In this document: one piece after another, positions 6,835 through 30,037 of the stretch
How the letters are laid out: every line of letters begins with the position of its first letter
Position numbering within the stretch: the stretch's first letter is position 1
NCBI GenBank assembly: GCA_017414505.1
Contig: JAFQLQ010000031.1
Location: 62,001 to 126,000, forward strand
DNA length: 64,000 nucleotides
Direction of reading: 5' to 3'
Source of the DNA: Clostridia bacterium
Lineage (GTDB): Bacteria; Bacillota; Clostridia; UMGS1840; HGM11507
Translations under genes and position numbers: made by a program
The notes under the pieces: generated by a model
Database searches by the model: none
What the model was told of the DNA's origin: nothing
Seen by the model: the letters and a program-made list of their open reading frames with translations, nothing else

Positions 6835-6863
6835 GTATAAAATCACCTGTACTTGGTAAATTA
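6835..6863 (+). promoter_or_regulatory. Candidate forespore (sigma-G-like) promoter inside the terminator
   Basis: GTATA (6835-6839) fits the forespore -35 GHATR. TAAATTA (6857-6863), 17 bases on, matches 5 of 7 positions of the sigma-G -10 CATWHTA. A start about 7 bases after the -10 would fall near 6870, in the 3' arm of the hairpin, freeing the ribosome-binding site. The -10 is weak. The main support is that spoIIR shows the same geometry. Confidence 0.35.
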
Positions 6864-6880
6864 AGTACAGGTGATTTTTT
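6839..6880 (+). terminator. Intrinsic terminator overlapping the ger operon ribosome-binding site
   Basis: A perfect 16-bp stem (6839-6854 with 6863-6878) has an 8-base loop and is followed by a T run ending at 6880. It ends the amidase-leuS operon. The 3' arm contains AGGTGAT (6869-6875), the only ribosome-binding site for the ATG at 6881. In an RNA that includes the whole hairpin, the site is fully base-paired. Confidence 0.85.
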
Positions 6881-7960
6881 ATGGAAAAAAAGACAGTTTT
6901 CGGTCATTGGGATGTTACTTTTGTGGTAGTAAATGCCATTATAGTTAAGCTGGTTTATTATTTTATGAATATATTTACACTAATCTCTGCAAGAGGCGGC
7001 TTTATATGTGCGTTGATTATTTCCGGTGCTTTTATACTTTTAGGCTTATTCTATAATAAAATTTACTCAATAATTACAATAACAGATTTTGGATTTTTGT
7101 CTGAAAAAGCTTTGGGAAAGTTTTTAAAAAAACTGTCTTTTTTGCTATATGTTATTTGTTTTGTTTTCAATACAGGTAATTTGCTTACTTTTTATACGGC
7201 GTCAGTTATGAATATGATGTTGCCGCTGTCGTCAGTTAAGGTGTTGCTTACTCTTATAATAGTAACAGCTTTTGTGATTACCACAAAAGGATTAAAAACA
7301 ATTGTAAGAATCCACGGATTATTTACACCTTTGCTTTTGATGATTATGCTTGTTGCGAGTATTGCAATGTTTACAAAAGCTAATCCCGATAATTTTTTCC
7401 CGATATTCGGTTACGGAATTGATTCAATATTATACTGTTCGCTATTTACATTTTCGTATTTTTATGAAGTAATTTTTATGTTGTTTTTAATGCCTGATAT
7501 GGCAAAAACAGAGGAACGTAAAAAAACAATCAAGCTTACTTGTATTTTCAGCATTTCTGTGTTAATATTGCTTCTCGGTGCGTATATAGGAAGTGTTCCT
7601 TTTCCTGCTAATACAAATATTCTTTCTGTATTGATGTTTATTGCAAACAGTATGAACTTTCCAACTCCTCTTAAGGAAATTCTGCTTGTTTTTATGATTG
7701 GATATACGATAAATATCATTATTTATACGGCAACCAATATGTATTTTGCAGCAAAACTATATTCTGAAGCTTTTAATATAAGCCAGATTTTTCCGGTGCG
7801 AATAGGAATATCATTACTTATCGCAGTTTCTGCGCTTGCGGCAGGAACCGTTGATACAACGCTTGAAGTATATAAGTATTTTCAGCCGGTATTGTGGATT
7901 TCAGGAATAATTTTGCCTGCATTGGTATTGATAAAGGGGTACAGAAATGAGAAAAAGTAG
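6881..7960 (+). CDS. GerAB family spore germination permease-like subunit
   Basis: A 359-residue, highly hydrophobic protein with roughly ten predicted transmembrane helices. It belongs to the GerAB family, related to amino-acid permeases, and forms the germinant-binding membrane subunit of nutrient receptors in the spore inner membrane. The start MEKKTVFGHW and the downstream overlap with a GerAC-type lipoprotein gene support the call. No GerAA-type gene precedes it; leuS-ruvX-DUF1292 does. The start codon directly follows a terminator T run, and its ribosome-binding site lies within the hairpin. Germinant specificity cannot be read from sequence. Confidence 0.85.
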   Translation: MEKKTVFGHWDVTFVVVNAIIVKLVYYFMNIFTLISARGGFICALIISGAFILLGLFYNKIYSIITITDFGFLSEKALGKFLKKLSFLLYVICFVFNTGNLLTFYTASVMNMMLPLSSVKVLLTLIIVTAFVITTKGLKTIVRIHGLFTPLLLMIMLVASIAMFTKANPDNFFPIFGYGIDSILYCSLFTFSYFYEVIFMLFLMPDMAKTEERKKTIKLTCIFSISVLILLLGAYIGSVPFPANTNILSVLMFIANSMNFPTPLKEILLVFMIGYTINIIIYTATNMYFAAKLYSEAFNISQIFPVRIGISLLIAVSALAAGTVDTTLEVYKYFQPVLWISGIILPALVLIKGYRNEKK

Positions 7961-9366: not shown

Positions 9367-11289
9367 ATGAAAGAAAAAAATAAATTTCTTCCTCTCACCC
9401 CGGAAGAAATGCGGGAAAGAGGCTGGGAACAGCCGGATTTCGTTTTTGTTACGGCAGATGCCTATGTGGATCATCCGTCTTTTGCAAACGGAATTATTTC
9501 CCGTGTTCTTGAAAATGAAGGGTTTAAAATTGCAATACTTGCTCAGCCTGACTGGAACGACAGTAAAGCTTTTACAATATTTGGTGAGCCGAAATACGGT
9601 TTTCTTGTTTCGGGCGGAAATATAGACTCAATGGTGAATCACTATACTGCGGCAAAAAAACGCAGAAGTGAGGATAGCTATTCACCCGGCGGAAAAGCGG
9701 GTTTAAGACCGGACAGACCAACCATTGTTTATTCCAATAAAATAAGAGCTGTTTATAAGAATATTCCAATTATAATAGGCGGTATAGAAGCTTCGCTTCG
9801 CCGATTTGCCCATTACGATTACTGGCAGGATAAAATCCGTCATTCAGTGCTTTTTGACAGTATGGCAGACATTCTTATTTACGGTATGGGTGAACGAGCA
9901 ATCTGCGAAATTGCCAATCGCCTGAGAAACGGAGAATCAGTTTCGGAAATTACAAATGTAAAAGGAACTTGTTATTTAAGCAAAGGTAAACCGGAAACAG
10001 AGGGCGCAATATTTCTTCCGCCGTACAAAAATATAGTTGAAGATAAACTTAAATATGCCAACAGTTTTAAAACCCAATATACAGAGCAGAATCCTTATAG
10101 CGGAAAAGTTCTTATAGAAGAGCAGGAAAGCGGATTGTATCTTGTTCAGAATCCTCCGCAGACCGTTCTTACACGTCAGGAGCTGGACAGAGTTTATTCT
10201 CTTAATTATCAGAGAAGCTGGCATCCTGAATATGACAAAATGGGCGGTGTGCCTGCCATTGAAGAAGTAAAATTCAGTATAATTTCCGAACGTGGCTGTT
10301 TTGGCGGATGTAATTTCTGTTCTCTTGCCTTTCATCAGGGAAGAGTTGTTTCGTCACGAAGTGAAAAATCAATATTAAACGAAGCGAAAGGCTTTACATA
10401 TGATGAAGATTTCAAAGGATATATTCATGATGTTGGCGGCCCTACTGCGAATTTTCGGCACGAAGCCTGCGAAAATCAGAAAAAATACGGAGCTTGCAAA
10501 AACAAGCAGTGTCTCGCTCCAAAGCCCTGTAAAAATTTGCAGGCTGACCACACAGAATATCTAAGTTTGCTTAAAAAGCTTCGCAGTATAGACGGAATAA
10601 AAAAAGTATTTATCCGTTCAGGAATACGTTTTGACTACCTTCTTGAGGATAAAAATGACGATTTTTTCAGAGATTTGTGTAAACATCACGTTTCAGGTCA
10701 GCTTAAGGTTGCGCCTGAACATTCATCTTCCGAGGTTTTAAGACTTATGGGAAAACCGGAAATTTCTGTTTATAAAAGGTTCAAGGAAAAATATTTCAAA
10801 TATTCAAAAGAGGCAGGAAAAGAGCAGTATCTTGTTCCGTATCTTATGTCCTCACATCCCGGTTCAACTTTAAAAGAAGCGGTAAAGCTTGCAGAATTTT
10901 TACGTGATGAAAATTATCAGCCTCAGCAGGTGCAGGATTTTTATCCCACACCCGGAACTGTTTCAACCTGTATGTATTATACCGGAATAAATCCGCTTAC
11001 GGGTGAAAAGGTTTATGTTCCAAAAAGTTATAAGGAAAAACAGATGCAAAGAGCTCTTTTGCAATATAAACGTAAAGAAAACTATGATTTGGTTCACGAA
11101 GCCCTGGTTCTTGCCAAAAGAACAGATTTGATAGGCTTTACTGATAAATGTTTAATAAGACCTAAGAAAAATGAAAATACAAACGAAAAAAGGAGTAATG
11201 AAAATGAGCGCAAAAATAATAGACGGAAAACAAGTCTCAGCAAACATCAAAGAAAGAATAAAAAAGGAAGTAGCAGAAATAAAAAGTAA
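9367..11289 (+). CDS. ygiQ: YgiQ family radical SAM protein
   Basis: A 640-residue radical SAM enzyme of the YgiQ family; its substrate is unknown. The cluster-binding CxxxCxxC motif is at residues 311, 315 and 318 (GCFGGCNFC). The N-terminal domain ([24 protein letters not shown]) and a second cysteine-rich patch ([15 protein letters not shown]) are family features. The ATG at 9367 sits 6 bases behind GGTGAT; an earlier in-frame TTG at 9319 lies in the promoter. The last 29 codons, a lysine/arginine/asparagine-rich tail, overlap folD by 86 bases in another frame. Confidence 0.92.
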
Positions 11290-27485: not shown

Positions 27486-28331
27486 ATGGAACAAATTTTA
27501 ACCAAAGCTAAAATAAATCTTACTTTGGATGTGGTTGCAAAACGGGAAGATGGTTATCATGATTTAAAAATGATAATGCATTCTGTAAATTTGTATGACA
27601 AAATAAAAATACGCAATTCCAACTGCGGAAAAATAATTTTGAAAACCAACTCGCCGTATGTCCCTTGCGATGAAAGAAATATAATTATGAAAGCTATCCG
27701 AAAATTTGAAGCGGAAACGCTTATAAAAGTGGATGGTATGGATATTTATGTAGAAAAACATATTCCTGTATGTGCAGGTCTTGCGGGCGGAAGCACAAAT
27801 GCTGCCGGTATGTTAAAATACTTAAATGAAAAGTATAATAATCCACTCTCATGGGAAAGGTTAATCGAAGTAGGTAAAGAACTTGGTGCAGATGTTCCGT
27901 ATTGTATGACTGGAGGTACTTGTCTTGCTGAAGGTATCGGTGAAAAGCTTACACCTGTGGATTCTTTACCGGAATGCTTTATAGTTATTGCACGTCCCAA
28001 TAACCGTGGAATTTCAACAGCCAAAGTATTTAAAATGATTGATATTAACGAAATATCTTATCATCCTGATACAGACGGTATGCTGGAAGCACTTAAACAA
28101 AAAAATATTTATGATGTTTCAAAACGTCTCTTTAATGTGCTTGAATCCTATGCAATTACTCTGGATGACGAAATTGAAATATTTAAGGACAGATTTTTGA
28201 AAAACGGTGCTATGGGTGCGATAATGAGTGGCAGCGGAAATTCCTGTTTCGGAATTTTTGACGATGCAGACAAAGCCGAAAAATGTCGCCGCGATATGAA
28301 AAAACTAACAAATCAGGTTTATGTAGTATAA
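27486..28331 (+). CDS. ispE: 4-diphosphocytidyl-2-C-methyl-D-erythritol kinase
   Basis: A GHMP-family kinase of the MEP isoprenoid pathway. It is 281 residues long, with the N-terminal AKINLTLDVVAKREDGYHDL and the ATP-binding glycine loop PVCAGLAGGSTNAA (around residues 97-110). The start lies 2 bases after rhaB and has only a weak ribosome-binding site (GGCGGAA), so coupling to rhaB is likely. dxs and ispA of the same pathway are at 36503-39236. A terminator-like hairpin follows. Confidence 0.94.
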   Translation: MEQILTKAKINLTLDVVAKREDGYHDLKMIMHSVNLYDKIKIRNSNCGKIILKTNSPYVPCDERNIIMKAIRKFEAETLIKVDGMDIYVEKHIPVCAGLAGGSTNAAGMLKYLNEKYNNPLSWERLIEVGKELGADVPYCMTGGTCLAEGIGEKLTPVDSLPECFIVIARPNNRGISTAKVFKMIDINEISYHPDTDGMLEALKQKNIYDVSKRLFNVLESYAITLDDEIEIFKDRFLKNGAMGAIMSGSGNSCFGIFDDADKAEKCRRDMKKLTNQVYVV

Positions 28332-28334
28332 TAT

Positions 28335-28364
28335 GTATAAAACCTCCGGATTGAGGATAGAATC
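28335..28364 (+). promoter_or_regulatory. Candidate sigma-F promoter for spoIIR within the terminator
   Basis: GTATA (28335-28339) matches the sigma-F -35 (GYATA). GGATAGAATC (28355-28364), 15 bases later, matches the sigma-F -10 GGNNANANTR except at its last base. A start about 7 bases on would be near 28371, at the ribosome-binding site, leaving it unpaired. Sigma-F control of spoIIR is established in Bacillus; the promoter here is a pattern match. Confidence 0.5.
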
Positions 28365-28381
28365 AATTCGGAGGTTTTTTT
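28340..28381 (+). terminator. Intrinsic terminator overlapping the spoIIR ribosome-binding site
   Basis: A 15-bp stem with one G-U wobble (28340-28354 with 28363-28377) has an 8-base loop and is followed by a T run to 28381. It ends the rhaB-ispE transcript. The 3' arm contains GGAGGT (28370-28375), the only ribosome-binding site for spoIIR at 28382, so the site is paired in any RNA reading through from ispE. Confidence 0.82.
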
Positions 28382-28948
28382 ATGAAAAAAATTATTATTT
28401 CAATATTGCTTGCAACGGTTTTGTCTTATTTAATGATAAATGCTGTTTTGCATTTTGAAAATAATGTGATTTGTGATAATTTTGTAAGAATACATATAAT
28501 CGCAAACTCAGATGAACCTTATGACCAGATAGTAAAAATGGGAGTAAGAAACCATATTTTTACAAAATTTAAAAATGAATTTTCTACTCTTTCATCAAAA
28601 GATGCAGCAATCAAATATATTAATAATAATATAAATTTAATATCTGATGAAGTCAATAACTACCTTGAAAATATTGGTTACAGTAATAAAGCAGCTGTAA
28701 AAATAACTTTTGAAAATTTTCCGGCAAAAGTGTATGAAAAATTCCTTTTACCGGAAGGTAACTATAACGCTCTTAAAATTGTAATCGGCAGCGGAATGGG
28801 AAAAAATTTTTTCTGTGTTATGTATCCGCCGCTGTGTGTTTCCGAAAATGTTCGTATAGAAAAAAATGTAAAAACAAACACTTCAAAAAAATATACGGTA
28901 AATTACGAATCGAGAATTGCAAATGTTTTCAATCACATTTTACGGTAA
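28382..28948 (+). CDS. spoIIR: Stage II sporulation protein R
   Basis: A secreted signalling protein made in the forespore under sigma-F. It triggers SpoIIGA to process pro-sigma-E in the mother cell. The 188 residues begin with a signal peptide or anchor (about 3-24), followed by the family motif FVRIHIIANSDEPYDQIVKM (around 39-58) and the later LPEGNYNALKIVIGSGMGKN stretch. The ATG is 6 bases behind GGAGGT in a hairpin stem. Its 3' end overlaps the convergent lexA gene by 16 bases. It is clear evidence of endosporulation capacity. Confidence 0.93.
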   Translation: MKKIIISILLATVLSYLMINAVLHFENNVICDNFVRIHIIANSDEPYDQIVKMGVRNHIFTKFKNEFSTLSSKDAAIKYINNNINLISDEVNNYLENIGYSNKAAVKITFENFPAKVYEKFLLPEGNYNALKIVIGSGMGKNFFCVMYPPLCVSENVRIEKNVKTNTSKKYTVNYESRIANVFNHILR

Positions 28949-29574
28949 ACACCTACAACCTTTCCAAGTACAACCAGACTTGTTACAATTATAGGATCCA
29001 AAGCATCGTTTTCGGGCTGTAAACGGAAATAACCGTTTTCTTTATAAAAGGTTTTTACAGTAGCGCTGTCATCAATAAGCGCAACAATAACATCGCCGTT
29101 GTTTGCAATGTTCTGACGTTCGACAATAACATAATCACCATCCATAATTCCGATGTTTATCATACTGTCTCCCTGAACCTGTAGCATAAAAATTTCTTTA
29201 TTATGCGCAAAATCCATCGGAAGAGGAAAGGTTCTTAATATGTTTTCAACTGCAAGAATAGGCTCTCCGGCAGCAACTTTTCCTATAACGGGAACATTGA
29301 GAAAATTTATTCCTTCTTCCAGCTCAACCTTATCGTCGTTTGCAAAAAGCTCATCTTTGTGAACAGTCTGCGAGCTGATTGTCCGGTTTTTTAAAGCATC
29401 TTTTTTTAATAATCCCATATCTACCAGATTGCTTATATGAGTATGAACGGTTGCAGGAGATTTCAGCCCTACACCGTCAGCAATTTCGCGGACAGTGGGG
29501 GAATAGCCGTTCTCCTCAATAAAAGAATTTATAAAATCAAAAATAATTTTCTGTTTTTTTGTCATATTATTCAC
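28933..29574 (-). CDS. lexA: SOS repressor LexA
   Basis: Represses DNA-damage genes and self-cleaves on contact with RecA filaments. The 213 residues have an N-terminal winged helix (SPTVREIADGVGLKSPATVH), the scissile bond A102-G103 (KVAAGEP), nucleophile S137 (QGDSMIN) and K174 (ATVKTFY). The start is a GTG at 29574, nine bases behind AAGGAGG; an ATG nine bases further in is less well placed. It is divergent from a yneA-like gene over a cluster of LexA-type boxes and convergent with spoIIR. Confidence 0.95.
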   Translation of the reverse strand: MNNMTKKQKIIFDFINSFIEENGYSPTVREIADGVGLKSPATVHTHISNLVDMGLLKKDALKNRTISSQTVHKDELFANDDKVELEEGINFLNVPVIGKVAAGEPILAVENILRTFPLPMDFAHNKEIFMLQVQGDSMINIGIMDGDYVIVERQNIANNGDVIVALIDDSATVKTFYKENGYFRLQPENDALDPIIVTSLVVLGKVVGVYRKM

Positions 29575-29597
29575 CGTAAAATACCTCCTTTTTCTAT

Positions 29598-29626
29598 ATT
29601 ATAACATACAAAATTCAATTTGTCAA
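29598..29626 (-). promoter_or_regulatory. Promoter for lexA
   Basis: On the minus strand, TTGACA (29626-29621), a 17-base spacer and TATAAT (29603-29598): a full-consensus promoter. A LexA-type box (29624-29637) overlaps its -35. Confidence 0.8.
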
Positions 29627-29637
29627 ACGTTTGTTCG
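29624..29637. promoter_or_regulatory. LexA box at lexA
   Basis: CAAACGTTTGTTCG, read on the minus strand as CGAACAAACGTTTG, matches the Gram-positive SOS palindrome CGAAC-N4-GTTCG at 9 of 10 positions. It covers the -35 of lexA, consistent with autorepression. Confidence 0.75.
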
Positions 29638-29680
29638 AAAAAATGTTTGCAAAATGTTCGTATTTTTTTCAAAAAAACTC

Positions 29681-29709
29681 TTGACAAAAACAAATGTTCG
29701 TGTTATAGT
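29681..29709 (+). promoter_or_regulatory. Promoter for the yneA-like gene with embedded LexA box
   Basis: TTGACA (29681-29686), a 17-base spacer and TATAGT (29704-29709). The spacer contains a LexA-type box (AAAACAAATGTTCG, 29687-29700; 8 of 10 half-site positions), ideally placed for repression. Confidence 0.78.
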
Positions 29710-29719
29710 GTAATCAAAC

Positions 29720-29733
29720 AAAACAAATGTTCG
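29720..29733 (+). promoter_or_regulatory. Second LexA-type box downstream of the yneA-like promoter
   Basis: AAAACAAATGTTCG is identical to the box at 29687-29700 and lies between the promoter and the ATG at 29753. The half-site AAATGTTCG occurs a third time at 29652-29660. Together these make an unusually dense SOS operator region. Confidence 0.65.
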
Positions 29734-29752
29734 TATTTTTGGAGGGGATTTT

Positions 29753-30037
29753 ATGAAAAAAATAGTTATAGTAAGTAAGGCTCGTTTTATATTTTTTGTA
29801 TTTGTTCTGTTGATTACTTTTTCAATATTGTTTTCTAATATGTGGAACTTAAATCTTGCAAAATCGTGTGATAACGTTGTTGAATATACTGTTGCAAGCG
29901 GAGATACACTTTGGTCAATTGCAGAAAAATACGCAAAAGATACAGATATAAGACAGTATATTTACGATTTGAAAAAAATTAACAATATGGAAAAATCTGC
30001 CTTGTTTGCAGGTCAGAACATAAAAATTCCTTATTAA
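29753..30037 (+). CDS. yneA: LysM-domain membrane protein, YneA-like SOS cell-division inhibitor
   Basis: A 94-residue protein with an N-terminal membrane helix (about residues 11-32) and an extracytoplasmic LysM peptidoglycan-binding domain (about 44-94; YTVASGDTLWSIAEKYAK, ending NIKIPY). Size, architecture, divergence from lexA and LexA boxes in its promoter match Bacillus YneA, which halts division during DNA damage. The start follows TTGGAGGGG. The assignment rests on architecture and context. Confidence 0.82.
   Translation: MKKIVIVSKARFIFFVFVLLITFSILFSNMWNLNLAKSCDNVVEYTVASGDTLWSIAEKYAKDTDIRQYIYDLKKINNMEKSALFAGQNIKIPY

Follow-up and report, generated by a model that had tools for sequence, protein, structure and literature searches.

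The long early RNAs of phage T4 keep gene e locked, whereas it is free in transcripts of its late promoters, which themselves encode the 5′ strand of the helix (PMC3014915); soc, 49 and I-TevI are translationally locked as well (PMC3014915). A hairpin of 20 bp or more has been proposed to block translation of Bacillus subtilis sigG from spoIIG read-through RNA; transcripts started at the sigG promoter itself are unable to form it (PMC5942855). The transcription of spoIIR under σF and its role in σE activation are established in B. subtilis and Clostridioides difficile (PMC3789822, PMC3789829). In C. difficile, spoIIR is partly σF independent (PMC3789822), so strict silence is not required everywhere. 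A full-text literature search, with thin coverage of subscription journals, gave only the sigG paper (PMC5942855) for spoIIR with a hairpin of this kind and only an unrelated genome comparison for ispE and spoIIR named together.

The hairpin between ispE and spoIIR

The window analysed here is a 64,000-nucleotide stretch of a Clostridia bacterium (UMGS1840; HGM11507; assembly GCA_017414505.1, contig JAFQLQ010000031.1, positions 62,001 to 126,000, forward strand). The open reading frame at 28382–28948 is SpoIIR by its PF09551 match; its score against TIGR02837 (128 bits) is under the strict equivalog cut-off of 152. It is separated from ispE by 50 bases. Directly behind it, at 28933–30037, lexA and a yneA-like LysM gene form a divergent pair, as is usual for these SOS genes. 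The parts of the locus are as follows.

27486–28331, + strand: ispE (TIGR00154, 225 bits; cut-off 139), upstream in the same direction, from which read-through RNA would come
28335–28339, + strand: σF-type −35, GTATA (from sequence; 13.3 bits on the σF matrix together with the −10)
28339–28354, + strand: 5′ arm of the hairpin with the anti-Shine–Dalgarno CCTCC (from the fold, with the same layout in relatives); from 28340 it fills the −35/−10 spacer
28355–28364, + strand: σF-type −10, GGATAGAATC (from sequence, matrix and fold); 28355–28362 form the hairpin loop
28363–28378, + strand: 3′ arm of the hairpin, with the Shine–Dalgarno inside (from the fold)
28370 (±2 nt), + strand: predicted σF +1 (from the −10 position and the class minimum Shine–Dalgarno to −10 distance)
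28370–28375, + strand: spoIIR Shine–Dalgarno (SD), GGAGGT (from sequence and the opening-cost computation)
28375–28381, + strand: T7 tract, candidate U tract of an ispE terminator and spacer between the SD and the ATG at 28382
28382–28948, + strand: spoIIR (PF09551, Spore_II_R domain, 132 bits; cut-off 25)

The hairpin has a 16-bp stem, an 8-nt loop and a folding energy of −23.4 kcal/mol (z −4.9; none of 200 shuffles equally stable), a second fold run giving z −3.6. It is laid over the promoter: the 5′ arm occupies the −35/−10 spacer, the loop consists of the first eight −10 bases, and the 3′ arm carries the SD. A preliminary description had placed the hairpin at 28340–28377 with the SD in its 3′ arm, which is correct except that the true limits are 28339–28378. 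GTATA at 28335, the −10 at 28355–28364, GGAGGT and a T run leading into the ATG can be read directly in the sequence, as it had reported.

In RNA started upstream the SD is paired at a probability of 0.99–1.0, and opening it is computed to cost 16.8 kcal/mol in read-through RNA versus 1.7 in promoter-started RNA. The locus would thus have both marks of an SD lock, an SD predicted to be buried in upstream-started RNA and a cognate promoter that encodes the 5′ strand. The end of ispE also has the sequence signature of an intrinsic terminator, a stable GC-rich stem with a U tract immediately after it. The hairpin is missing from the output of an automatic consensus terminator scan, probably because the stem runs into the T tract; termination is accordingly predicted from the stem plus T7.

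By homology of the −10, with position 5 taken as −11 and position 9 as −7, the predicted +1 is position 16, or 28370. Across the loci compared below, the distance from the start of the −10 to the SD is never less than 15 nt, such that the SD is never upstream of the predicted +1; this minimum supports the predicted start and a need to retain the SD in the transcript. The window is at this bound, so forespore RNA would begin with GGAGGUUUUUUUAUG, and since the predicted +1 is the first G of GGAGG the SD would be at its extreme 5′ end. The earlier proposal of a start near 28371 holds in that the predicted start is beyond the 5′ arm and the SD free, but the SD would be 5′-terminal.

From sequence, folds, homologies, covariation and gene context, we consider it likely that spoIIR carries a one-way SD lock joined to a terminator, which would be opened by its own σF start. 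Read-through RNA from ispE would contain both arms of the hairpin and would probably be terminated at the T7 tract. RNA that escaped would be untranslatable because its SD is buried in a strong helix, with an opening cost of about 17 kcal/mol. Since the 5′ arm is encoded within the −35/−10 spacer of the promoter itself, σF RNA polymerase in the forespore would begin beyond it, at about 28370. The resulting RNA would form neither terminator nor lock, leaving the SD open at about 2 kcal/mol.

Recurrence, covariation and gene context across Clostridia

We compared 153 spoIIR loci sampled across the class Clostridia, folding for each the RNA with 45 nt upstream of the start and the RNA beginning at the start. 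The SD is paired with pre-start RNA at a probability above 0.5 in 71 of 142 loci, its partner being mostly the spacer (32) or the −10 (19). Among genus representatives this pairing exceeds that of dinucleotide shuffles (0.51 versus 0.37, p 1.6e-5), most strongly at ispE-adjacent loci (0.73 versus 0.45, p 1.3e-5). The mean difference in SD-opening cost is 3.8 kcal/mol for spoIIR versus 1.0 for control ORFs, and the cost falls only for promoter-started RNA. Exchanging promoters among loci makes a poor null, as some SD arms can pair with the σF −10 consensus itself, and the comparison also took in shuffles, control genes, gene context and covariation. In L055, L080, L090, L110 and L152 the −10 itself (GTCAATACT or GTCAACACT) serves as 5′ arm, with GGGGGTATTGAC or similar as the SD region.

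Covariation was analysed in a Clostridium-like genus, which we take to be Clostridium. A spacer–SD duplex is found in all 64 of its spoIIR loci with a called promoter. The loci's own duplexes are stabler than swapped ones, with no permutation as good in 5,000, or in 20,000 for 22 cluster representatives. In an alignment of 25 sequences in one register, from which several misregistering sequences were left out, 88.7% of cells pair, compared with 54–58% after a slide by one column. Cells changed on both sides number 10 versus 2.1 expected (0 of 500 shuffles as high), where the shuffles keep sequence relatedness, an effect that the cluster test reduces and does not abolish. spoIIR matches with in-frame stops occur in L264 and in genomes G267, G330 and G350, and may be alignment past the gene end or broken copies.

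These data bear on whether the hairpin is simply the ispE terminator, the shortness of the gap having made GGAGGTTTTTTT double as 3′ arm, SD and spacer, with the hiding of the SD an unselected by-product. The 50-nt gap and the T7 tract suit such economy, as do at least five Ts after the paired SD in all four genomes of the window's family and at 11 further loci. However, most locked loci, nearly all of the Clostridium loci L242–L261 included, have no T run and yet retain the spacer–SD duplex with compensatory changes. Occlusion is also rare at other genes of the window's genome that have a co-directional neighbour 30–200 nt away: just 4 of 68 exceed 8 kcal/mol and all four are sporulation genes. 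We therefore regard economy as an unlikely explanation of the lock.

The promoter is widely conserved. In the window it consists of GTATA, a 15-nt spacer and the −10, matching 10 of 12 specified positions of GYWTA, 14–15 nt and a GGNRANANTW-like −10. A σF matrix refined on the 153 upstream regions converges on TGTATA and GGCAATACTT, and finds a site above 8 bits at 143 of the 153 loci (reverse-complement controls: median −0.1, 95% at 6.9 and 99% at 9.9 bits); the window, itself among the training sites, scores 13.3 bits. Conservation of both spacing and sequence argues against the site being fortuitous, with spoIIR expressed from ispE or from a σA-type TATAAT at 28327–28332 and the hairpin acting as an attenuator or damper opened by another factor. 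A 10/12 match to σ70 does end at 28332, and the partial σF independence of C. difficile spoIIR (PMC3789822) points the same way. The match is nevertheless within chance expectation and made of the last ispE codons, and we rejected it as a candidate promoter; moreover, no Rfam family reached threshold for the element, the best matches being far below gathering scores. Expression by this route is, in our judgement, highly doubtful.

The lock depends on the neighbouring gene. If it blocks read-through, as the preferred reading holds, it is expected where read-through is possible. The mean opening-cost difference is 6.2 kcal/mol at ispE-adjacent loci (16 of 21 genera above 3) and 5.2 where another co-directional gene lies within 200 nt (25 of 48 genera above 3). 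It is 1.7 kcal/mol where the co-directional gene is farther away (13 genera) and 0.9 where the neighbour is divergent (3 of 18 genera above 3). Near co-directional and divergent loci differ at p 2.8e-5 to ~5e-5 (genus representatives), and the effect persists in family means, with start offsets from j+12 to j+17 and in distance-matched loci. Co-directional loci are the stronger in seven of the eight families that have both contexts. Many co-directional loci are unlocked, among them several in families f41, f24 and f8. An unselected overlap of composition, in which a G-rich SD on an AT-rich background is complementary to letters of the σF consensus, was already disfavoured and is hardly credible, since although the SD also pairs to a fair extent with shuffled or swapped promoters (null means 0.35–0.37), observed pairing is above that of shuffles, swaps and control genes and divergent loci with the same consensus lack the lock.

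Families differ. In all four members of the window's family (f1) a hairpin encloses the SD and a T run comes after it, the promoter call in L004 being weak. In the sister family f2 (L002, L006–L009) the ispE terminator still shares bases of its 5′ arm with the −10, but the SD lies outside the hairpin, and no SD lock is found at ispE-adjacent loci of family f19. The preliminary description had named relatives with the ribosome-binding site outside any hairpin as evidence that would refute it, and such relatives do exist; the lock is accordingly common, not universal. Both halves of the double lock that it envisaged agree with the sequence. The translational half is strongly backed by the relatives: the predicted start lies beyond the anti-SD arm, which covaries with the SD, occurs where read-through can happen and is missing where the neighbour is divergent. 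The terminator half is seen in the window's family and some others but not in most of Clostridium, so what the loci have in common is the translational lock and not termination. At the level of sequence, the mechanism first suggested for spoIIR is supported.

Occluded Shine–Dalgarno sequences at other sporulation genes

SD-opening costs were computed with a 70-nt upstream fold for 318 SD-bearing genes from 421 kb of the window's genome, and for a second sample of 258 genes. spoIIR, at 13.6 kcal/mol, is second of the 318 (median 2.1), below a spore germination (ger) permease gene at 6881 of the same window (16.6 kcal/mol). In the second sample a single gene has a cost above 10 kcal/mol; it is of the SipL/SPOCS-LysM coat type and lies behind ruvB. 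Six genes in both samples together are above this value, and five of these (ger permease, SipL-like, spoIIR, spoIIAA and spoIIID) act in sporulation, sporulation genes being over-represented because some contigs were chosen for their sporulation sigma genes. The sixth, a GH43 gene (L213:8367), was discounted as a case of ordinary operon overlap.

The element before the ger permease gene is a second copy of the spoIIR-type architecture.

6835–6880, + strand: whole element (fold −24.3 kcal/mol, z −6.8; PF03845 gene downstream)
6835–6839, + strand: GTATA
6840–6854, + strand: spacer, forming the 5′ arm
6855–6864, + strand: −10-like GGTAAATTAA, in the loop
6869–6874, + strand: SD, AGGTGA
to 6880, + strand: T run, followed by the ATG of the gene at 6881

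The ger operon (6835–7960) lies behind ruvX and comprises the PF03845 permease gene and then a GerAC-type gene at 7947; the spacing of its element is identical to that of spoIIR. At the SipL-like gene (L234:8520–8600, + strand) a hairpin and T7 lie across the SD, and by eye a σE-like promoter, GAATATT-14-CATATATT, has its −10 in the 5′ arm; the arrangement is weaker in L314 and L315. The SDs of spoIIAA and spoIIID (L214:9602–9990 and 10049–10390, − strand) are highly occluded, and with the σH-like and σE-like promoters, again identified by eye, most of the 5′ arm would lie upstream of the start. In the window's genome, sigG has a divergent neighbour and, by eye, no comparable hairpin (unscored). 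The layout is frequent among Clostridia sigG loci: the 29 that have a site average 3.6 kcal/mol, and 55% of them lie above 3. In the sigG loci L154–L183 the anti-SD is often in the σF/G spacer, for example CTCCATCC with GGATGGAG.

The SipL-like lock occurs in the window's genome and, in weaker form, in two of its three relatives within the family, whereas f2 lacks it; that of spoIIAA, whose conservation was tested in relatives, was found only in the window's own genome. This patchiness, together with the f2 and f19 pattern, suggests that the lock is readily gained and lost.

Generality and comparison with known systems

We lean, by a narrow balance, towards a general rule in Clostridia whereby sporulation genes behind growth genes encode an anti-SD in their own alternative-sigma promoter, and RNA would be translatable only if the matching sigma factor had set its start. 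The sigma factors concerned would be σF/G and, judged by eye, σE and σH. If the rule is true, a promoter with an anti-SD inside it controls translation as well as transcription. The lock would explain how potent developmental genes can adjoin growth genes without leaking, would show promoter spacer DNA to be under RNA-level selection, and would make testable the long-standing question of how sporulation timing is kept leak-free despite read-through. For annotation, pairing of an SD with promoter DNA would locate, give or take a few bases, where the cognate sigma factor starts transcription.

As in T4 gene e, upstream-started RNA of spoIIR would hide the SD and RNA from the cognate promoter would start past the 5′ strand. 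Whereas the T4 gene belongs to a phage and is read by the sigma factor gp55, spoIIR is a bacterial developmental gene under σF with, in the window's family, the lock fused to a terminator. B. subtilis sigG resembles it in being a forespore sporulation gene behind a co-directional gene, with own-promoter RNA that lacks the hairpin. That proposal concerns one gene, however, and the spoIIR lock is class-wide, with covariation, context dependence and terminator fusion. The element shares the GC-rich stem and U tract of an intrinsic (Rho-independent) terminator at the end of ispE, but here the 3′ arm is the SD of the next gene and the loop is its −10. Given the precedents of T4 gene e and B. subtilis sigG, the logic of the lock is already known; its use at spoIIR, its fusion to a terminator, its recurrence across the class and its dependence on the orientation of the neighbouring gene appear to be new.
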